Part shown: one piece after another, positions 5,733 to 53,644 of the stretch
Layout of the letters: each line of letters starts with the position of its first letter
Numbering within the stretch: the stretch's first letter is position 1
Assembly: GCA_023264995.1 (NCBI GenBank)
Contig: JAHFUR010000027.1
Span: 1 to 55,882 of the forward strand
Direction: 5' to 3'
From: Acidimicrobiia bacterium
Lineage (GTDB): Bacteria; Actinomycetota; Acidimicrobiia; Acidimicrobiales; AC-14
DNA length: 55,882 nucleotides
Program-made: the position numbers and the translations under genes
Notes under the pieces: generated by a model
Seen by the model: the letters and a program-made list of their open reading frames with translations, nothing else
Database searches by the model: none
Told to the model about the DNA's origin: nothing

Positions 5733-5820
5733 GGAGGGGTGCGGGAGCGGCCGAACCGGCACGCCTGGAGAGCGTGTAGGGGGCAACCCCTCGTGGGTTC
5801 AAATCCCACTCCCTCCGCCA
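5733..5820 (+). tRNA. tRNA-Ser (anticodon GGA)
   Basis: An 88-nt class II tRNA with encoded CCA. The acceptor GGAGGGG pairs with TCCCTCC. The anticodon arm CACGC-CTGGAGA-GCGTG gives anticodon GGA. A long variable arm follows, and the T arm contains GTTCAAAT. Seryl identity agrees with the long variable arm. Confidence 0.95.
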
Positions 5821-6370: not shown

Positions 6371-6455
6371 GGAGGGGTGCGAGAGCGGCCGAATCGGACG
6401 GTCTCGAAAACCGTTGTGGCGCAAGTCACCGTGGGTTCAAATCCCACCCCCTCCG
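6371..6455 (+). tRNA. tRNA-Ser (anticodon CGA), used as an integration site
   Basis: An 85-nt class II tRNA without encoded CCA. The acceptor GGAGGGG pairs with CCCCTCC. The anticodon arm ACGGT-CTCGAAA-ACCGT gives anticodon CGA. Its 3' portion from 6397 and the downstream terminator are duplicated 3144 bp away at 9541, marking it as the attachment site of an element. Confidence 0.95.
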
Positions 6456-6501
6456 CTCGGTCTGACAGGGCTTTCGGACGCGAAAGCCCTGCTCAGACGG
6501 C
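6397..6501 (+). repeat. Attachment-site direct repeat, left copy
   Basis: The segment runs from the anticodon arm of tRNA-Ser(CGA) through its terminator. Bases 6397-6477 are identical to 9541-9621 (81 bp). The match continues to about 6501 with two further substitutions after the first mismatch at 6478. A duplicated tRNA 3' end is the classic footprint of tyrosine-recombinase integration. Confidence 0.9.
6467..6490 (+). terminator. tRNA-Ser(CGA) terminator hairpin
   Basis: A perfect 10-bp stem (AGGGCTTTCG with CGAAAGCCCT) has a GACG loop and begins 12 nt after the tRNA. The copy at 9611-9634 keeps the stem and changes only the loop. Confidence 0.75.
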
Positions 6502-43117: not shown

Positions 43118-43564
43118 GTGCTCGTACATCTCGGCCCCGACTGCCGGGCGCTGCGCCTGCGCCTGCGTGCCCTCGAATGGGTCGTGCTCGAAGACGTCGC
43201 CCTCGACGCCGTCCTCGATCCCGCGGGCAGAGCCGTCGCCCCCACCAGTGCCAGGCGCATTGCCGCCAACCTCGCCCTCGACCCCGGCACCGTAGCCAGG
43301 GCCCTCACGCACCTGCGCGCCCTCGGCCTGATCGAGCACAGCCGAGCCCAGGGCGCCGACGGACGCTTCGGACTCTCCGCCTACCTGCTCGCCCCGATCC
43401 CCGGCATCGAACTCGTCGAACTTGGCGCACCAACCATGGCCCGACCACGCACGGACCGACCACGAGTGGAGGAGCCACCCATGGCATCACCGTCGATGCC
43501 GACGCCCAAGACCCGCAACACCCGGCCCGCCCAGCTCGATCTCCTCGGCAACGACTCGTCCTGA
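43118..43564 (+). CDS. Winged-helix protein upstream of the relaxase
   Basis: A 148-residue protein. Residues 15-100 look like a MarR/replication-initiator-type winged helix (LRALEWVVLEDVALDAVLD, TSARRIAANLALDPGTVARALTHLRALGLIEHSR in two parts), followed by a Pro/Arg-rich tail. GTG 43118 starts 6 nt after the excisionase stop, so the two are co-transcribed. Its place immediately before the candidate oriT and relaxase suggests an accessory transfer or regulatory role, which is inference. Confidence 0.7.
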   Translation: MLVHLGPDCRALRLRLRALEWVVLEDVALDAVLDPAGRAVAPTSARRIAANLALDPGTVARALTHLRALGLIEHSRAQGADGRFGLSAYLLAPIPGIELVELGAPTMARPRTDRPRVEEPPMASPSMPTPKTRNTRPAQLDLLGNDSS

Positions 43565-43705
43565 TCACCGTCATGAACATCCTCGTCAATCCGCCCAAGG
43601 TCCACGTGCAACACGATCCCGACCTTCCTCGCCACCGCGGCAACATCGGTCGCACCCCTCAGCAGTCGAGCCCCGAATGCCCACGACCCCCGCAGCCACA
43701 GACAC

Positions 43706-43736
43706 GTGCCACCTGGGTGGCACCCAGCCCGCGGGC
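43706..43736 (+). other. Candidate origin of transfer (inverted repeats before relaxase)
   Basis: A perfect inverted repeat GTGCCACC-TG-GGTGGCAC (43706-43723) is followed 3 bp later by the palindrome GCCCGCGGGC (43727-43736), ending 9 bp before the likely relaxase start. MobF relaxases recognise hairpins next to their own gene. No nic site can be assigned. Confidence 0.4.
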
Positions 43737-43745
43737 AGCAGTCTC

Positions 43746-46472
43746 GTGCTGAACATCACGCCGTTGCGCGACGCCGAGTACCTCATCTCCTCCGTCGCCC
43801 TCGGCATCGACGAGTACTACCTCGGCGTCGGCGAGGCGCCCGGCTTGTGGCAGGGCCGGTGGGCGGCGGAGCTGGGCCTGGCCGGCGTGGTGGAGGCCGA
43901 CGAGCTGCGAGCCCTGGTCGAGGGCGTGCATCCCGGCACCGGTGTCGACCTGCTGGAGGGCAACCGCAAGCGGGAGACGTTCGCCTTCGACGCCACCTAC
44001 TCCTGTCCCAAGTCGGTGTCGCTGCTGTGGGCGTTCGGGACGCCCGAGACGGCGACGGTCGTCTCCCGGGCCCACACCGAGGCCGTGGCCACCGCCCTGG
44101 CGTTCCTGGAGGACAAGGCCGCATTCGCCCGCCAGCAGGAGGGCGGGGTGCGCCGTCGCGTCGCGACGCACGGCTTCGTGGTGGCCACCTTCGTCCACCG
44201 CACGTCGCGCGAGGGCGATCCCCAGCTCCACACCCACTGCCTGGTCCCCAACGTCGTGCAGCGGGCCGACGGCTCCCATGTGGCCTTCAACGCCCATCCC
44301 CTCCATGAGTGGAAGAAGGCGTCGGGGAGCCTGTTCCAGTCCGAGCTGCGCCGGCTGCTGAGCCGGGACCTGGGCGTCGAGTGGGGCCCCGACCGCCACG
44401 GCTGCCGGGAGATGGTCGGCTTCAGCCGGGAGCAGCTGCGCACGTTCTCCAAGCGCACCGCCCAGATCGAGGCCGAGCTGGAGGCCCGGGGCGGGGAGTA
44501 CGAGTCCGCCGCGGCGCGCATGCGAGCCAACGACGCCGCATCGCTGGCTACGCGTCGGCCCAAGGACCGCCAGCTCACGCCCACGCTGCTGGCCGAGGCG
44601 TGGGAGGCCGAGGCCCGCACCGTCGGCCTGGAGGGGCCGGCGCAGGTCGAGTCACTGGTGGTCGGGCGTAACGTCGCCCGCTCGCCGATCAGTCGCGACG
44701 AGGTGTTCGCCCACCTGGTCGACCCCGATCTCGGCGTGTGCGCCCACCGGGCCCGCTTCACCGAGGCCCACGTGTACGAGGCCGTGTGCGCCCTCTCCGA
44801 CGGCCGGTGGGACGCGGATCAGGTCGCCGGTCTGGCCGGAGCGTTCCTCGCCTCTCCCCACGCCGTGCGCCTGGCGCCCGCCGTCGGGGCGGAGTGGTGC
44901 GAGTCGGCGCGGTGGTCGACGGCGGAGCACCGGGCACTGGAGGACCACGTGCTCGGCCGGCTGGAGCTGCTCGCCCGGCGCAGCGACGACGGCGTCGACC
45001 CCCAGGTGGTCGAGGCCAGCCTGGGTCGGGAGCCGGCGCTGGGCGACGACCAGGCCGAGGCAGTCCGGGAGCTGTGCGCGCCCGGAGCCGCCCTGAGGGC
45101 GATGATCGCTCCCGCGGGCCACGGCAAGACGACGGCGGTGCACGCCGCCGCCGTGGCCCAAGGCGAGGCGGGCCGGCGGGTGCTGGGCCTCGCCGCCACC
45201 AACAAGGCGGTGGAGGAGCTGCGGGGCGTGGGCCTGGAGGCCATGACGATCGCCCGCCTCCGCATCCAGCTGGCCGACGGTGGGCTGGCGCCGGGGACAC
45301 TGCTGGTCGTCGACGAGGTGTCCAAGGTCTCCACCCGAGACGCCGCCGTCGTGCTCGACGCCGCGGTGGTCACGGCCGGCGCCGGCGTGTGGTTGCTGGG
45401 CGATCCCCGACAGGGCACGCCGGTGGCCGCCGGTGGGATCGCGGCGGAGGTCGCCCGTATGGGCGCCGAGGGCATGATCCCGGCACCGGAGCTGACCGAG
45501 AACCGTCGCCAGCGCGACGCCGGCGACCGCGAGGCCCTGGCCGAGCTGCGAGGGGGCCGGGCGGCCCAGAGCCAGGCGACACGCGCCCGCCACGGCTGGG
45601 AGCACGAGCACGAGAGCCCGGAGGCGACGAAGGAGGCCATGGCCGAAGCCGTGGCCGCCGACGTCGTGCGCTTCGGGGCTGAGGCCGTCGTCACCCTTGC
45701 CGTCTCCCACGCCGACTGTGAGGACATCGCCGATCGGCTCCGCCGCCGGCTGATCGCCATGGGCCACATCGCCGAGGGCGGCGCCCGGGGGCCGGGCTGG
45801 GGGATGGCGGAGCGGACCTACGCCAGAGGCGACCGCGTCCTGTTGCACGCCGGGTTCCGTGATGCAGGGGCAACCCTGTACAACGGATCCGTGGGGACGG
45901 TGACCGCCGCCGGCGACGGCGGCGCCCTGCGGGTGCGCTTCGGGGAAAGGGAGGTGCTCCTGCCCGCCTCCTTCGTTGCCGGCCTCCGAGACGACGCCAC
46001 GCCAAACCTGTCCCATGCCTGGGCCCGCACGGTGGACGGCGCCCAGGGTGGCACCTGGGAGGCGGCCCACCTGCTCGGCACCGACGCCCTCGACGCCATG
46101 CGCGGCTACGTGGGCCAGAGCCGCAGCCGGGTGCCGACCCACACCTGGAACGTCCGGCGTACTCCGGCCGTCGACCACGGCGGCGTGCTCGCCGATGACC
46201 GCGACGGCGCCGCCCAGGTGCTCGCCGCCCTGGGCCGGGAGCCAGACGTCGATTTCGCCGCCGTCGATGACCCCTGGCCGGCGGACCGGCGCCTGCGGGC
46301 GGAGCGGGCCGAGCACCGCGAAGTCCTGGATCGCTGCCCGAACGACCGGGCCATGGAGCTGCAGGCGGCCGTGAACCGGCGCCACGAGGCCGCGTTGCGG
46401 CTCCGCTTCGCAGAGGGCGATGTCGAGCGTGGCGTTCAGGCCCTCAAGGAGCTGCCCACCTCGGCCGGTTGA
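43746..46472 (+). CDS. MobF-family relaxase with RecD-like helicase domain
   Basis: A 908-residue conjugative relaxase that nicks oriT and unwinds DNA. It starts at GTG 43746, giving the family N-terminus LNITPLRDAEYLISSVALGI then DEYYLGVGEAPG with candidate catalytic tyrosines. The three-His metal site is H151, H162 and H164 in FVHRTSREGDPQLHTH. The helicase domain has Walker A APAGHGKTT near residue 455, Walker B LVVDEVSKVS and late motifs VDGAQGGTWEAAH and YVGQSRSR. GHGKTT is unusual for the common GTGKT. ATG 43677 is a possible earlier start but translates the candidate oriT. Confidence 0.92.
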   Translation: MLNITPLRDAEYLISSVALGIDEYYLGVGEAPGLWQGRWAAELGLAGVVEADELRALVEGVHPGTGVDLLEGNRKRETFAFDATYSCPKSVSLLWAFGTPETATVVSRAHTEAVATALAFLEDKAAFARQQEGGVRRRVATHGFVVATFVHRTSREGDPQLHTHCLVPNVVQRADGSHVAFNAHPLHEWKKASGSLFQSELRRLLSRDLGVEWGPDRHGCREMVGFSREQLRTFSKRTAQIEAELEARGGEYESAAARMRANDAASLATRRPKDRQLTPTLLAEAWEAEARTVGLEGPAQVESLVVGRNVARSPISRDEVFAHLVDPDLGVCAHRARFTEAHVYEAVCALSDGRWDADQVAGLAGAFLASPHAVRLAPAVGAEWCESARWSTAEHRALEDHVLGRLELLARRSDDGVDPQVVEASLGREPALGDDQAEAVRELCAPGAALRAMIAPAGHGKTTAVHAAAVAQGEAGRRVLGLAATNKAVEELRGVGLEAMTIARLRIQLADGGLAPGTLLVVDEVSKVSTRDAAVVLDAAVVTAGAGVWLLGDPRQGTPVAAGGIAAEVARMGAEGMIPAPELTENRRQRDAGDREALAELRGGRAAQSQATRARHGWEHEHESPEATKEAMAEAVAADVVRFGAEAVVTLAVSHADCEDIADRLRRRLIAMGHIAEGGARGPGWGMAERTYARGDRVLLHAGFRDAGATLYNGSVGTVTAAGDGGALRVRFGEREVLLPASFVAGLRDDATPNLSHAWARTVDGAQGGTWEAAHLLGTDALDAMRGYVGQSRSRVPTHTWNVRRTPAVDHGGVLADDRDGAAQVLAALGREPDVDFAAVDDPWPADRRLRAERAEHREVLDRCPNDRAMELQAAVNRRHEAALRLRFAEGDVERGVQALKELPTSAG

Positions 46473-48245: not shown

Positions 48246-49547
48246 TCAGGGGACAACGAGCAGCGGGTCGCCGTCGGCCTGACAGGGCCCGACCGGCGGG
48301 ATCGTCTCCTCCATTCGTGCCGCGACGACAATTCCCGAGAGCACGCTCAGGACCGCCATCGCCATGACGGCGACGCGGAGGTCGTACAGGTCGGCGACGA
48401 CTCCTCCGAGCAGGGCACCGACGACATAGCCCGCGTCACGCCAGAAGCGGTAGACACCGACAGCTTTCGCCCGCCAGGTCGGGTGGGCAACATCACCGAC
48501 GGACGCGATCAGCGTCGGGTACACCAGCGCAGTGCCCACGCCGATCAGCCCGGCGCCGAGCGCCCAGAGCGCAAACCCGGTCATGGCCGCCATCAAGGCG
48601 AGCGCTGCGCCCTGCACCACCATCCCGGCCACGATCAGGGGTTTGCGCCCGACTCGGTCCGACCACGACCCGGTGACGAGCTGGCCAACGCACCAGACGC
48701 CCGGGTAGACGGCTGCCAGGATGCCGATGTCCTCCACCGACTCGCCGCCGGCGGCGAAGAGCAGGGGCAGGATGCCCCACGCCAGGCCGTCAACGGCGTT
48801 GTTCACCATGCCGGCCTGGCTGAGCGCGTTGAGGGTCGGGTCCCGCCAGGTGGCGCGGGCGAAGATGGCTCCGAAGCCGTCGCCGGCGTCGTCCCGTTCC
48901 GGGGTGCCCGCGGCCTCGTGGTCCGCGTAGGCCCGGGTCTCGCGAACGAACAGGCTGGACAAGCCGAGACCGAGGGCGGCGAAGGCGACGCCCAGGAAGA
49001 ACGGCGCGGGCCGCAGGCCGTAGCGGGCGGCGATGGCCCCGGTGGCGAGCGCGGTGAGCGACACCGCGCCGTAGCCGGCGGCCTCGTTGAAGCCCAGCGC
49101 CGTCCCCCGCCGGGCCGGCCCGACCAGGTCGATCTTCATCACGACCGTCGTCGACCACGTCATGGCCTGGTTGATGCCGAGCAGGACGTTGGCGGCGATG
49201 ATCCACCCCCAGCTGGGGGCCCAGATGAGCAGCAACGGGACCGGCACGCCGACGAGCCAGCCGGCGACGAGCACCGGCTTGCGCCCGATGCCGTCGATGA
49301 GGGCTCCGGTAGCCAGGTTGGCCACCGCCTTGGTGGCGCCGAAGGCCACGATGAAGGTGGCGCTGGCCGTGAACGCGCCGAGGGCGAAGGTGCGTGTGGC
49401 CAGCAGCGGCAGCACGGTGCGCTCCTGGCCGACCATGCCGCCCACCAGGGCGTTGACCGCCACCAGGAGGCTGAACTGGGCCAGGTTCTCCCGAAGTCCC
49501 AGGCGCAGCACCGCCGGAGCCCCGACGAGTCCCCCTCGCCGCCTCAC
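48246..49547 (-). CDS. MFS transporter
   Basis: A 433-residue major-facilitator protein with about twelve membrane helices. The motif A-like loops ALIDGIGRKPVLVAGW and GSWSDRVGRKPLIVAGM, one in each half, are clear. GTG 49547 overlaps the stop of the MBL-rhodanese gene (GTGA), and it is last in the ArsR-rhodanese operon. Likely export of a small product or toxic anion handled by the pathway; the substrate is unknown. Confidence 0.88.
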   Translation of the reverse strand: MRRRGGLVGAPAVLRLGLRENLAQFSLLVAVNALVGGMVGQERTVLPLLATRTFALGAFTASATFIVAFGATKAVANLATGALIDGIGRKPVLVAGWLVGVPVPLLLIWAPSWGWIIAANVLLGINQAMTWSTTVVMKIDLVGPARRGTALGFNEAAGYGAVSLTALATGAIAARYGLRPAPFFLGVAFAALGLGLSSLFVRETRAYADHEAAGTPERDDAGDGFGAIFARATWRDPTLNALSQAGMVNNAVDGLAWGILPLLFAAGGESVEDIGILAAVYPGVWCVGQLVTGSWSDRVGRKPLIVAGMVVQGAALALMAAMTGFALWALGAGLIGVGTALVYPTLIASVGDVAHPTWRAKAVGVYRFWRDAGYVVGALLGGVVADLYDLRVAVMAMAVLSVLSGIVVAARMEETIPPVGPCQADGDPLLVVP

Positions 49548-50896
49548 ACCACGAGGCGCAGACCGCGGGCGGCGGCGACGTCGGCTGGGCCACCCACCAG
49601 CACGGCGACATCGGTGCGCCCATGGGCGGCGAGGATGCTGGCCGCGCTCATGGCCCGCTCCCCGTGGCCGCACATGAGGGTGATGGGAACGGCCGGCAAG
49701 GTCGAGGCCAACGATGCTGCCTCACCGAGCTCGACACTGAGGGCGCCGGGCACGTGGCCGGCGGCGAACTCGTTGCGCTGGCGGACGTCGACGACGGTCC
49801 CGCGCACCTCCCCCGGCTCGACGAGCTCCACGCGTTCGACGGGCCGGCCGCCGGCCTGCCACGCGTCGATGCCGCCCGAGAGCTCCCCGACCAGGCGCTC
49901 GTAGCCGATGGCCAGGCACTGGCGGACCAGCTCGTCACGGTCCTGGCCGGCGCCGGCGACGAACACGAGCGGGCGGTCCCGAGCCACGAGCCACCCCAGC
50001 CAGCTAGCGAACTGCGGGCGCAGCGGAATCGACAACGACCCGGGCAGGTGGCCGGCGGCGAAGGCCTCGACTGGTCTGACGTCGACGATGGCCGCGCCGT
50101 CGTCGAGGAGGCGTTCGGCGGTCGCCGCATCGAGGGGGGCCAAGGCCGGGTACTCGCCGTAGAGGTGGGGGCCGCAGCGGTTGACCTTGCGCAACTCGAG
50201 GAAGTAGGTGGGGAAGGTGCCGAACCCGGCGAGCAGGCGGGCGACGAAGGCGTCCTCGTCGGGCGCGCCGAGCAACGGGTTGGTCGCTCGCTCCCGGCCG
50301 ATAGTCGTGACCCGCTCGCCGCCGGGGGCGACCGAGCAGAACGAGCCGGCGCCATGGGTGGGGTACACGGCCAGGTCGTCGGGCAGGCAGAGGAGGCGTT
50401 CCCGGATCGACCGCCACAGCGACCGGGCCAGGTCCTCGGTGGCCTCCGGCGCGATCAGGTCGGTGCGGGCCACCGCTCCCACCAGCAGGGACCCTCCGCT
50501 GAACAGGGCCACCGGCCGGCCGTCGTCTCGCAGGAGGTAGGCGAGGTGCTCGGGCGTGTGGCCCGGCGTCTCGATGGCCTCGAGGCTGAGCCCGCCGAGG
50601 TCCAGCGTCTCGCCCCCGGCCAGTCCATGGTGGGGGTGCTCCAGCCCGGCGGCCCGGGCCGCGACCACCGTGGCCCCCCGGGCGGCGAGCTCGCGGCTGC
50701 CGGAGATGAAGTCGGCGTGGAGGTGGGTCTCCGCGCTCAGGGCGATACGGAGGCGGCGCCGCTGGGCATAGGCCAGATAGGGGCGAGGGTCGCGCTCGGG
50801 GTCGACCACCATCGCCCGACCATCACCCAGGTCGACCAGGTAGGAGCAGTTGCCCAGCCCCTCGTCGACCAGCGCCGAGATGTCGGGGCCCCTCAT
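49544..50896 (-). CDS. MBL-fold hydrolase with two rhodanese domains
   Basis: A 450-residue protein. The N-terminal metallo-beta-lactamase fold resembles persulfide dioxygenases: ETHLHADFISGSREL (H58, H60, D62), PGHTPEH (H113) and SGGSLLVGAVARTDL. Two rhodanese domains follow. The first has AGAGQDRDEL where the active-site Cys loop should be, so it is probably inactive. The second has MCGHGERAMS with the Cys. ATG 50896 overlaps the end of the UGA-containing methyltransferase frame (ATGA). A role in persulfide or thiosulfate-type sulfur handling is likely. Confidence 0.9.
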   Translation of the reverse strand: MRGPDISALVDEGLGNCSYLVDLGDGRAMVVDPERDPRPYLAYAQRRRLRIALSAETHLHADFISGSRELAARGATVVAARAAGLEHPHHGLAGGETLDLGGLSLEAIETPGHTPEHLAYLLRDDGRPVALFSGGSLLVGAVARTDLIAPEATEDLARSLWRSIRERLLCLPDDLAVYPTHGAGSFCSVAPGGERVTTIGRERATNPLLGAPDEDAFVARLLAGFGTFPTYFLELRKVNRCGPHLYGEYPALAPLDAATAERLLDDGAAIVDVRPVEAFAAGHLPGSLSIPLRPQFASWLGWLVARDRPLVFVAGAGQDRDELVRQCLAIGYERLVGELSGGIDAWQAGGRPVERVELVEPGEVRGTVVDVRQRNEFAAGHVPGALSVELGEAASLASTLPAVPITLMCGHGERAMSAASILAAHGRTDVAVLVGGPADVAAARGLRLVV

Positions 50897-51672
50897 GCCA
50901 GCGGTCTGCGGGCCATGAACGGGTGACCGAACACGGCATAGGCCCGGGCGTTGGCCTCCCCGCCGGCGCCGCCAAAGGTGTCGACCGGCTCGCCGATGCG
51001 GACGTCCACGAAGCCCGCTTCCTCCAGCATCTGCTGCCAGCCTGCGCACGGCAGGCCACCGGCAATTCAGCCGGTCCACAGGTCGATGTCGGCGAGGGCC
51101 TCGGGAGGGACCGGGCGCCCGTTGGCGATGTCGGCGAACTGGAGCACCCCGCCGGGGCGCAGGACGCGAAAGATCTCGGCGAACACCGACCACTTGTCGG
51201 CACACAGGTTGATGACGCCGTTGGAGATCACCGCGTCGGCCCACCCGTCGGGCACCGGGAGCCGTTCGGCCAGGCCCTCGCGGAACTCCACCTGGGCCAG
51301 CCCCAACAGCCCGGCGGTGGCCCGGGCCTTGGCCAGCATCGCGGCCGTCATGTCGACCCCGACGACGTGGCCCTCGACCCCGACGTGGGCGGCGGCCACG
51401 AAGGAGTCGAAGCCGGCGCCCGAGCCCACGTCGACCACTCGCTCCCCGGGGGCGAGCGGGCGCAGCGCCAGCGGGTTGGCCACGCCGGCGAACGACTCGA
51501 CGGCCACCTCGGGGAAGCCGTCGACCAGGCCGGTGTCGTAACCGAGGCGGGCGGCGAGGCCACGCCCGGTGTGGAAGTGGTAGGTGGCGGTGGGCTCGGT
51601 GGCCACGGCCCGGTACTTCTCCCGCACCTCGGCCCGGAGGCGCTCGGCGTCGACGAGGGTCTGCTGGGGCAC
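50893..51672 (-). CDS. SAM-dependent methyltransferase, probable selenoprotein (Sec202)
   Basis: 259 residues if UGA at 51069-51067 is read as selenocysteine; 201 if it stops. GTG 51672 has AGGAG 6 nt upstream. The class I methyltransferase core is VVDVGSGAGFDSF (motif I, residues 79-91), VVGVDMT, AVISNGVINLCADK and VLRPGGVLQFADI. After IDLWTG comes UGA, then IAGGLPCAGWQQMLEEAGFV to the stop at 50893. ArsM/UbiE-like relatives have Cys-(I/V)-x-G(A/G) here. The other ArsM As-binding Cys (ISNC) is Gly. The read-through frame ends in a perfect ATGA overlap with the next gene, so the natural product includes the tail. The substrate is unknown. Confidence 0.8.
51026..51069 (-). promoter_or_regulatory. 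UGA codon and bSECIS-like hairpin
   Basis: In mRNA sense, UGA is followed after 16 nt by a 5-nt apical loop CGUGC closed by the perfect 6-bp stem GCCUGC/GCAGGC, which can be extended by G-U and U-G pairs. The distance, stem length and a G in the first two loop positions match the usual bacterial SECIS description. Confidence 0.65.
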
Positions 51673-51683
51673 TGTGACTCCTC

Positions 51684-52352
51684 TCAGTCGTGGCCGGCGG
51701 CGACCGGCAGTCCCGCCCGCTTCCACTCGGGGTACCCGTCCTCCAGGCGCCGGGCCCGGTACCCCCGGCGGTCGAGCTCGCGCACGGCGTCATCCGCGTA
51801 CACGCAGTAGGGGCCGCGGCAGTAGGCGACGACCTCGGTGTCCTTGGGTAGGGCGGCCAGGCTGCGGCGCAGCTCCGCCGGCGGCACCGACCGGGCGCCG
51901 GGGATGTGGCCGGCCCGGTACTCGGCGTCGGGGCGGATATCGAGCACGACGACGTCGCCGAGGGCCAGGCGCTCGGCCAGCTCCTGGCGGGAGATGGCCT
52001 CCAGGCCGGCGCGGTCGCCGAGATAGTCCCGGGCCAGCCGCTCGATGCCGGCGACGTGCTCAGTGGCGACGTCGCGCAGGGCGGCCCACAGGGCGCCGAC
52101 ACGCTCGCTGGCCAGGGCGTAGTAGATCCGGGTCCCGTCACGGCGGGTGCAGACAAGGCCGGCGCGGGCCAAAGCCCGGAGATGGTGGGAGGTATTGGCC
52201 AGCGTCTGGTCGAGCTCCTCCGCGATCGCCTCCACCGAGCGCTCGCCTTGGGCCAGCACGTCGACGATCTCGGCTCGCCGGCCGCTGGCCAGCGCCTTGG
52301 CCACCTCGGCGAAGGCGTCGAACAGCGCGTCCTTCGCCTGGCGATCTCCCAT
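51684..52352 (-). CDS. ArsR-family regulator fused to a rhodanese domain
   Basis: A 222-residue sensor-type repressor. The winged helix spans residues 10-95 (SVEAIAEELDQTLANTSHHL, VCTRRDGTRIYYAL). There is no classical As-binding Cys pair in the recognition helix. The rhodanese domain (about 115-215) has the active-site loop YCRGPYC (C178, C183), able to carry a persulfide. Such fusions are thought to sense sulfane sulfur or oxidation. It is the first gene of a four-gene operon and should bind the palindrome just upstream. A -10 box (CAGGAT) 6 nt before the ATG implies a leaderless transcript. Confidence 0.92.
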   Translation of the reverse strand: MGDRQAKDALFDAFAEVAKALASGRRAEIVDVLAQGERSVEAIAEELDQTLANTSHHLRALARAGLVCTRRDGTRIYYALASERVGALWAALRDVATEHVAGIERLARDYLGDRAGLEAISRQELAERLALGDVVVLDIRPDAEYRAGHIPGARSVPPAELRRSLAALPKDTEVVAYCRGPYCVYADDAVRELDRRGYRARRLEDGYPEWKRAGLPVAAGHD

Positions 52353-52471: not shown

Positions 52472-52834
52472 ATGACCGGGAAAGCCGTTGTCAGCCTGAG
52501 CACCGGACTCGAGGACGCCGAGAAGGTGACCGTGGCCTATCTCGTCGCCGTCGGGGCCGCCGAGTCGGGCCGGCCCACGCTCATGTTCCTGACCAAAGAA
52601 GCGGTCCGCCTAGCCCTCGGCGGCGTGGCCGGCGGCGTGGCGTGTGAGGGTTGCCCTCCCCTCGCCAGCCTGCTCGATCGCTACGTGGCCGCCGGCGGGC
52701 GCTACTTCGTCTGTCCCATCTGCTTCAACTCCAAAGGGCTCGACTCCTCCGGTCTGATCGGCGGCGCTGAGCTGGCCGGGACGGTGCAGCTGTGGGAGTG
52801 GATCGGCGACGGGGCGACCACGTTCAGCTACTGA
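52472..52834 (+). CDS. DsrE/DsrF-like family protein
   Basis: A 120-residue cytoplasmic protein of the DsrE superfamily, small sulfur-carrier or peroxiredoxin-like trimers. It starts KAVVSLSTGLEDAEKVTVAY and has a LMFLTKEAVRLAL strand-helix. Two Cys pairs are present, C58-x2-C61 (ACEGC) and C81-x2-C84 (FVCPICF), which could carry sulfur or bind metal. GGGGAG lies 8 nt before ATG 52472. Transcription from the ArsR-controlled divergent promoter ties it to the rhodanese operon. Confidence 0.87.
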   Translation: MTGKAVVSLSTGLEDAEKVTVAYLVAVGAAESGRPTLMFLTKEAVRLALGGVAGGVACEGCPPLASLLDRYVAAGGRYFVCPICFNSKGLDSSGLIGGAELAGTVQLWEWIGDGATTFSY

Positions 52835-52867: not shown

Positions 52868-53644
52868 ATGGCCAGGCTGGCGGCGACGGAGATCGCCGCC
52901 CTCGACCCGTACAAGTTCATGGCGGTCGTCGGCAAGCGGGTGATCCATCCCGGTGGGCGAGAGTCGACGGAGTCGCTCCTCGCCCGAGCCGACGTCACCG
53001 AGGCCAGTCGGGTCCTCGACGTCGGCTGCGGGGTGGCGACCACCGCCATCGAGATCGCTCGCCGCCACGGGGCGGAGGTGACCGCAGTCGACATCTCGCC
53101 GGTGATGCTGGACAGGGCCGCCGCCAACGTGCGCGTCGCCGGGGTCGAGGACCGGGTCCGGGTCGCCGCGGGCGACATCCTCGACCTCGAGTTCGACGAC
53201 GGCGCCTTCGACGTCGTCATCGCCGAGGCGGTGACCATGTTCGTCGACCGCCGGCGGGCGGCGGCGGAGCTGAGCCGGGTGACCAGGTCGGGGGGAAGGG
53301 TCCTGGCCACCGAGTTCTTCTGGCGGCGTGCCCCCTCCGATGAGGCCCGCGAGGTGTTCCTGGGCCAGGTGTGCCCCGGCCTGGAGTTCGACACGGTCGA
53401 GGACTGGACGGCGATCTACGGCGCCGCCGGGCTCGCCGATATCGAGACGGAGACCGGCCCGTTCGAGATGATGACGCCACGGGGTTTCCTCGCCGACGAG
53501 GGCCTGACCCGCAGCCTCGCCATCATGGGGCGGGTGGCGGTCCGGCCGGCCCACGTTCGCAAGATGGCCTGGCTGATGCCCCGGATGGCGCGAGCCGTCC
53601 CTTACCTCGGCTACATCGTCGTCACGGCCACCAAGCCGGGCTGA
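52868..53644 (+). CDS. SAM-dependent methyltransferase (class I)
   Basis: A 258-residue enzyme. The N-terminal MAVVGKRVIHPGGRESTE is typical of a subgroup found near sulfur genes. Motif I is VLDVGCGVATTAIEIA, then VTAVDISPVMLDRA, DILDLEFDDGAFDVVIAEAV and LSRVTRSGGRVLATEFFW. GGGGAGG lies just before ATG 52868. It is second in the DsrE operon. This makes two methyltransferases on either side of one ArsR-type operator; whether they share a substrate is unknown. Confidence 0.88.
   Translation: MARLAATEIAALDPYKFMAVVGKRVIHPGGRESTESLLARADVTEASRVLDVGCGVATTAIEIARRHGAEVTAVDISPVMLDRAAANVRVAGVEDRVRVAAGDILDLEFDDGAFDVVIAEAVTMFVDRRRAAAELSRVTRSGGRVLATEFFWRRAPSDEAREVFLGQVCPGLEFDTVEDWTAIYGAAGLADIETETGPFEMMTPRGFLADEGLTRSLAIMGRVAVRPAHVRKMAWLMPRMARAVPYLGYIVVTATKPG

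Follow-up and report, generated by a model that had tools for sequence, protein, structure and literature searches.

The stretch of DNA analyzed here (hereafter the window) comprises positions 1 to 55,882 (55,882 nucleotides) of contig JAHFUR010000027.1 from the Acidimicrobiia bacterium assembly GCA_023264995.1. On its minus strand, at 50893-51672, lies a gene for an S-adenosylmethionine (SAM)-dependent methyltransferase of the ArsM superfamily with 259 residues, which was assigned from its reading frame, family matches, PDB relatives, orthologs and a structural model. This gene contains an in-frame UGA (51069-51067, minus strand) within the motif U-I-A-G, at the column of C224 in CmArsM. Judged from sequence comparisons, the UGA is almost certainly read as selenocysteine (Sec) at residue 202, in a product with a methyltransferase fold; this grade concerns decoding and fold and does not extend to the substrate. 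The assignment of the codon is based on the frame, the ArsM alignment, the column in orthologs and a Modestobacter ortholog in which UAG is paired with a CUA tRNA-Sec. A predicted bacterial selenocysteine insertion sequence (SECIS) hairpin follows on the same strand (51058-51038), and is supported by covariation, a Cys control and fixed synonymous codons.

Read from GTG 51672, the frame is interrupted once, by the TGA at 51069-51067. It reads VPQQTLVDAERLRAEVREKYR...DIDLWTG before this TGA and IAGGLPCAGWQQMLEEAGF...ARRPLA after it, and ends at a terminal TGA (50895-50893), which shares ATGA with the start codon (ATG, 50896) of the next gene. An initial sequence-only reading of the window had proposed both the interrupted frame and the ATGA overlap, and both were confirmed on the letters; the 58 open codons that it gave past the UGA are 57 sense codons by our count. 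A Shine-Dalgarno-like stretch, GAGGAG, is located immediately 5' of GTG 51672. This GTG is likely to be the start codon but falls short of proven, because the listing of open reading frames (ORFs) puts the first start upstream, at GTG 51726. A gene caller that halts at the UGA would report an enzyme truncated at residue 201 with its C-terminus lost, as the sequence-only reading had predicted; the gap before the next gene would be 170 bases (51066-50897), however, and not 190 bp.

The same TGA is present in the orthologs of five of the 40 relatives that were searched beside the window's genome, with identities of 80, 76, 72, 68 and 73% (the last one partial). Two weak matches (G033:C274 and G003:C64), each with one TGA, are not counted among these five. 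Wider relatives were the best 80 of at least 557 confirmed loci, picked by similarity to Sec proteins. In the 132 aligned rows, duplicates included, the UGA column holds TGA in 58, Cys in 68, Gln in one and a gap in five; that is, 126 of the 127 rows with a residue have Cys or TGA. With Sec written as C, a 56-row alignment shows no variation in this column, and the same codon with a conserved tail occurs in genomes titled as several phyla. Thus, an in-frame UGA, a conserved coding stretch and Cys in relatives are found together, and the alignment with homologues that had been suggested as a check gives Cys or Sec in every row with a residue there, except the one with Gln. The expectation that the UGA sits at the Cys which relatives have before I/V-x-G was also borne out: in the phmmer alignments to ArsM chains, it faces the C of "geClgGAL" and is followed by I-x-G.

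Selection on the two sides of the UGA was compared from nonsynonymous (dN) and synonymous (dS) substitution values in 27 pairs. Between the window gene and its counterpart in L010, dN/dS was 0.062/0.319 before the UGA and 0.062/0.536 after it. In the window-gene pairs for which dS could be computed, dN was smaller than dS on both sides, with the exception of L065 before the UGA, where the alignment is gapped; no dS could be obtained for L061 on either side, nor for L063 in the part preceding the UGA. Because dN is below dS both before and after the UGA, the two parts of the gene are under purifying selection.

The window's genome possesses the machinery for Sec insertion. The tRNA-Sec (66.4 bits; cut-off, 47) has the anticodon TCA, selA and selB adjoin each other on contig C7 and are each above cut-off, and selD, also above cut-off, is itself a Sec gene with the motif GUACK (L051, contig C36). 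All four components that had been named for a search are therefore present, and the objection that the genome might lack Sec machinery fails. In all five genomes with an orthologous UGA, selA, selB and tRNA-Sec are above their cut-offs. Among 30 genomes, selA was above cut-off in 20 of the 23 with a recoded copy as compared with two of the seven in which only Cys copies were seen. The three genomes that have a Sec copy without selA above cut-off count against the Sec assignment; their completeness is 60, 78 and 56%. Two tRNA-Ser genes in the window (5733-5820 and 6371-6456, plus strand) gave sub-cut-off matches to the tRNA-Sec model; these are not Sec tRNAs.

A bacterial SECIS has a G early in its loop. 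A hairpin of this kind was found just 3' of the UGA: an 8-bp stem (51058-51051 with 51045-51038), which is complete in the window sequence, carries the loop CGUGC (51050-51046), which begins 16 nt after the UGA. The stem columns (12-19 with 25-32 after the UGA) are common to the 34 Sec sequences that do not have Arg at the seventh residue after Sec (Sec+7). In these sequences, 92.3% of cells are paired versus 77.4% in shuffled alignments, and the covariation value is 0.446 versus 0.205; none of 500 shuffles was as high in either measure. Versions of the stem slid along the same sequences pair only 26.5-47.1% of cells. As a control, the same columns were analyzed in 18 of the clade's 20 Cys members (the first copy of L068 and the second copy of L143, both Cys rows from second copies, were set aside), and pairing was 48.6% versus 49.9% in shuffles. 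Furthermore, CGUG followed by C, U or A occurs within the 42-nt stretch after the site in 38 of 52 Sec sequences as compared with one of 67 Cys sequences; this count omits L009, L054 and L064, together with any sequence whose 42-nt stretch duplicates another.

The synonymous codons inside the hairpin are also constrained. CCC, CGT and GGC are fixed in 12 of 12 members of one subgroup, in which 15 of 100 conserved columns are equally fixed, and CCG and GCA are fixed in 14 of 14 members of the other, in which none of 90 other columns is equally fixed. Unlike these codons, the Ala and Gly codons immediately before the hairpin are variable. The subgroup with Arg at Sec+7 ("LPR") consists of 14 TGA sequences and the UAG sequence. 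In 13 of the 14 and in the UAG sequence, the CGUG loop is two bases later and is closed by an invariant 4-bp stem; the remaining one, L157, has CGGGA.

Several results weigh against the hairpin. The folding energy of the window stretch is ordinary when compared with shuffles (z 0.35), and the case for the hairpin therefore comes from covariation and fixed codons, not from stability. Of the five measures taken on the shared stem, two are weak: pairs changed on both sides number 5 versus 3.4 in shuffles (25 of 500 as high), and further pair types number 14 versus 12.2 (83 of 500 as high). In addition, the stem was drawn from the tested sequences, and the subgroups were split once their registers had been seen; for both reasons, the comparison with slid stems is lenient and the Cys control is the fairer one. 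In the LPR subgroup, the 4-bp stem never varies and so can show no covariation.

Two further observations concern the hairpin. In alignment columns 16-30, the presence of Cys or Arg at Sec+7 (LPC or LPR) tracks the two-base shift of the SECIS loop. Because the residue goes with this shift, it is apparently the hairpin that determines which amino acid stands at Sec+7. Four loci (L019, L060, L067 and L080) carry a second Sec methyltransferase that is more distant (AWAGU-V-A/S-GAL) and has its CGUG loop further downstream; in four second-copy paralogs, the loop motif is five bases later. Clusters of sigma-factor-like and zinc-finger-like genes are present near the second Sec methyltransferase in L060, L067 and L080; Pfam, applied to one member of each such cluster, gave Sigma-70 (L068) and zf-HC2 (L060).

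Modestobacter sp. DSM 44400, which we take to be a member of Geodermatophilaceae, possesses an ortholog with UAG in the Sec column (L058:6589-6591), and the conserved tail of the family follows. In the same organism, a tRNA-Sec (66.9 bits; L173:1501-1596) has the anticodon CTA; ARAGORN labels it as tRNA-Pyl. Since the codon changes together with the tRNA, the residue is hard to explain unless it is Sec. A second, weaker tRNA-Sec match in the Modestobacter genome (48.1 bits, just above the cut-off) speaks against this reasoning; weak matches of this kind can be tRNA-Ser (for example, L175 with 52.9 bits). A CUA tRNA-Sec and UAG-Sec have been reported for Geodermatophilaceae (PMC5330540). The UAG ortholog and the CUA tRNA-Sec thus confirm the Sec site through an independent case from nature, and the ortholog extends the UAG-Sec genes beyond formate dehydrogenase, the UGSC protein and AhpC in the available portion of that report (PMC5330540).

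These results bear on two other explanations of the UGA. It might really terminate translation, or might have arisen recently as a nonsense mutation, with a decaying frame downstream: the part upstream of the UGA holds the SAM-binding core by itself, and UGA is an ordinary stop for other genes here, including the end of this one. The shared codon and conserved tail, the fixed codons of the hairpin, the Cys relatives and the UAG/CUA switch in Modestobacter make this explanation highly improbable. Ordinary stops or scattered changes after the UGA in close strains, which the sequence-only reading had named as the mark of a pseudogene, were not found in the relatives, which keep the UGA and the conserved tail. 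A sequencing or assembly error from TGC or TGT to TGA would need one base change; the TGA and the hairpin are common to independent assemblies and the Cys homologues do not have the hairpin, and the probability of such an error is negligible. Both a nonsense pseudogene and a sequencing error were accordingly rejected on the basis of the same UGA and hairpin in independent genomes. Recoding of UGA throughout the genome was rejected as well, because UGA also serves as the stop of the selenoprotein gene itself.

Pfam and NCBIfam describe the window protein as a SAM methyltransferase. The best NCBIfam match is NF041537 (ArsM-type double selenoprotein; 218.5 bits, cut-off 510), and NF008823 (arsenite methyltransferase) matches at 208.1 bits, below its curated cut-off of 263. 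The top four solved relatives by sequence (phmmer) are arsenite methyltransferases. A structure predicted from the 56-row alignment, with Sec written as Cys, had a mean predicted local distance difference test (pLDDT) score of 96.6. In a Foldseek search with this model, the first nine rows are ArsM chains. In a second structural alignment, the top row is CmArsM (4fr0; Z 26.3, root mean square deviation 2.4, 217 aligned residues), followed by 6cx6_A (Z 25.8) and 5evj_A (Z 24.8); these first three rows are ArsM and the next row scores 21.8. The predicted protein thus has an ArsM fold with a SAM site. In the model, the part after the UGA comprises a helix (209-218), a strand (222-226), a second helix (239-244) and a second strand (248-255), all with high confidence. 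Because the tail carries these elements, a chain ending at the UGA would lack some of the predicted fold. The tail is also conserved in orthologs, in agreement with the earlier statement that a stop here would lose a conserved C-terminus.

Alignment to the solved chains places Val64 of the window protein at C72 of CmArsM, Gly152 at C174 and Sec202 at C224, so that none of these three positions is Cys. We counted the residues at these sites in 116 rows: 51 have Sec and lack both other cysteines, 20 have Cys and lack both, and 45 have Cys and possess both; there is no mixed row. The count, and the tree made from the same rows, leave aside presumed duplicates (L009, L054, L064 and L150), rows shorter than 175 residues, rows gapped at the column, among them L058 with its UAG, and also L017. 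With L017, 46 sequences keep both other cysteines; 45 of them have Cys at the third site and L017 has Gln. Because the sample was picked by similarity to Sec members, the finding that canonical ArsM lack Sec applies to this sample alone. In a quick tree, the one-site rows are on one side of a branch with a support of 37, and at least nine changes between Sec and Cys are needed; because the support is only 37, a single origin of the one-site rows is not shown.

In a survey of ArsM, positions 72, 174 and 224 were conserved and at least three of four ligand cysteines were required (PMC5552862). By the standard of this survey, the window protein is not an ArsM, because two of the three ligand cysteines are absent. 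It is nonetheless related to ArsM by descent. The designation "ArsM-like" from the sequence-only reading therefore holds for fold and descent but not for the arsenic ligands. Because the sampled Sec members belong to the group without the arsenic site, the name "arsenite methyltransferase" is probably misleading for them. It could nevertheless be that the window protein is an arsenite methyltransferase which uses Sec for one arsenic-binding cysteine and is regulated by the adjacent ArsR-type protein. Its closest solved relatives in sequence and fold are ArsM enzymes, it matches NF008823 at 208.1 bits, the neighbouring regulator is of the ArsR/SmtB type, and a recent catalogue calls the family arsenite methyltransferase (PMC13188914). 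We regard this function as unlikely in view of Val64 and Gly152, the lack of both other cysteines in 51 of 51 Sec sequences with at least 175 residues, the Cys (45) or Gln (L017) at the third site in the 46 sequences that have both, the ligand requirement of the survey (at least three of four; PMC5552862) and the missed NF008823 cut-off (263 bits).

The neighbouring genes were assigned by family matches. Directly upstream, in the same direction, a gene (51684-52352, minus strand) encodes an ArsR/SmtB-type regulator fused to a rhodanese domain. Downstream, the gene coupled by ATGA (49544-50896, minus strand) encodes a metallo-beta-lactamase-fold protein with two rhodanese matches (MBL-rhodanese), and a major facilitator superfamily (MFS) transporter (48246-49673, minus strand) is the last gene of the run; the ORF listed for the transporter overlaps the preceding gene and probably has its true start further inside. 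On the plus strand, two genes diverge from this run: one for a DsrE/DsrF-like small protein (52472-52834) and one for a second SAM methyltransferase (52868-53644), a distant relation of the first that is also found near the ortholog in L010, L011 and L012. In the 39 named loci, ArsR-rhodanese recurs in eight, OsmC in eight, MBL-rhodanese in seven, DsrE in seven and MFS in six; these counts cover at most 6 kb on each side, with many contigs shorter, and were obtained by clustering with Pfam on a few members. A TrwC-type relaxase with a helicase domain (43422-46472, plus strand) points to a conjugative or mobilised element next to the operon.

A further gene arrangement was found in Gemmata, where a TGA-bearing relative is fused in frame to MddA, methanethiol S-methyltransferase (L084:5992-7509; 344.3 bits, cut-off 270). 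In Gemmata's order, presumably Gemmatales, a match over the full fused length with one internal TGA is present in four of 102 genomes (G790, G815, G885 and G868), a count that includes G790, the source of the query. On the letters of L180, L182 and L183, the TGA and the MddA part are in one frame; L181 is known from its search match alone. In addition, separate genes for the relative and MddA are side by side in G831 (contig C57) and G832 (contig C38).

These data suggest another acceptor. The window protein may be a sulfide, selenide or small-thiol methyltransferase, which would be Mdd-like in its working and not in its membership and which, in Gemmata's order, would feed the fused MddA for formation of dimethyl sulfide or dimethyl selenide. 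The MddA fusions in four of 102 genomes, the adjacent genes in G831 and G832, and the rhodanese, DsrE and OsmC neighbours are weak to moderate evidence for such an acceptor. ArsR-type regulators sense several metals and reactive sulfur; because of this, the regulator is neutral on the substrate and suits arsenic as well as sulfur. Mdd enzymes of the UbiE/UbiG type are known (PMC12904073). On the other side, a search of the window's genome at E 1e-40 gave no MddA, MddA is above cut-off in only three of 27 genomes, and the stretches of about 1.5 kb on each side of MddA in L176 and L177 gave no match to the Sec-methyltransferase profile. The fused lineage is about 45-48% identical to the window protein, a fusion could unite two detoxifying methylases with different substrates, and MddH, MddM1 and MddM2 were set beside the window protein by description and not by sequence. 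Taken together, a chalcogen acceptor (sulfide, selenide or small thiol) is a reasonable possibility, though with somewhat less than an even chance, and is likelier than arsenite; the remainder falls to other soft metals or an unknown acceptor. MddA as a general partner was ruled out by its presence above cut-off in three of 27 genomes and by the lack of adjacency, within about 1.5 kb, in two of these three.

The sequence-only reading had called the gene a probable new selenoprotein. It is a selenoprotein gene and is new as a gene; the family is already catalogued. A 2026 review lists arsenite methyltransferase with the motif UxxG and one Sec, plus three fused relatives, and its NF008823 entry cites Fomenko et al. 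2007 (PMC13188914); in the Global Ocean Sampling (GOS) paper, arsM is among the named selenoprotein families (PMC2398784). The window gene therefore belongs to the catalogued UxxG kind, and its protein shares the superfamily, the motif and the single Sec with the NF008823 entry. It scores below the cut-off of that family (208.1 versus 263 bits); it also lacks the equivalents of C72 and C174. The double selenoproteins ArsM/AhpD, ArsM/DUF2284 and methyltransferase/UXPK-star (NF041537, NF041536 and NF047649) match through their methyltransferase parts at 218.5, 190.6 and 200.8 bits, respectively; they have two or three Sec residues and a second domain (PMC13188914). In contrast, the window protein has one Sec and no second domain and is far below their cut-offs (510, 575 and 460). 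A search with NF041537 at E 1e-75 gave no match in 396 genomes of the phylum, and, since control genomes were equally silent, it has no bearing on absence. Canonical ArsM/AS3MT enzymes (CmArsM, CrArsM and human AS3MT) share the fold and the third-site position with the window protein, which differs in having Val64 and Gly152 for two ligand cysteines and Sec for the third. With MddA, MddH and MddM1/MddM2, the likeness is in the proposed chemistry, and within Gemmata's order proteins related to that of the window occur either as fusions with MddA or next to it; MddA itself is described as an unrelated membrane protein, and MddM1 and MddM2 as UbiG/UbiE-type proteins with 210 and 204 residues (PMC12904073). 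The available portion of the cited catalogue (PMC13188914) does not mention the loss of the other two cysteines in the long Sec sequences, the fusions with MddA or the ortholog with UAG, and we do not claim these as first reports. Among the titles and abstract openings listed by a literature search, none describes a Sec methyltransferase tied to methanethiol or MddA.

The following working scheme emerges. As the comparisons show, tRNA-Sec and SelB decode the UGA at 51069-51067, directed by the in-gene hairpin just downstream (51058-51038, loop CGUGC). The product, 259 residues long, is a SAM-dependent methyltransferase of the ArsM fold, in which Sec202 replaces the third arsenic-ligand cysteine. 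As the sole ArsM ligand position that is kept, Sec202 may act as a soft-atom ligand or a nucleophile that holds the methyl acceptor beside SAM. Sec in place of Cys may make this step faster, or may help the residue to recover after oxidation. The operon, with an ArsR-rhodanese sensor, the methyltransferase, MBL-rhodanese and the MFS transporter, would in that case serve in stress response or detoxification.

More generally, and as a tentative proposal from sequence that carries considerable doubt, the UxxG selenoproteins known as "arsenite methyltransferases" may mostly not be such enzymes. They may form a clade apart, in which one Sec or Cys stands for the three-cysteine arsenic site, and be Sec-dependent sulfide, selenide or thiol methyltransferases, that is, a selenium-using branch of bacterial methanethiol, dimethyl sulfide or dimethyl selenide formation. 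This branch would be coupled to MddA in Gemmata's order and to rhodanese operons in actinomycetes, and in one lineage the Sec codon would have shifted from UGA to UAG. The MddA fusions give the Sec methyltransferases a concrete alternative substrate to arsenic.

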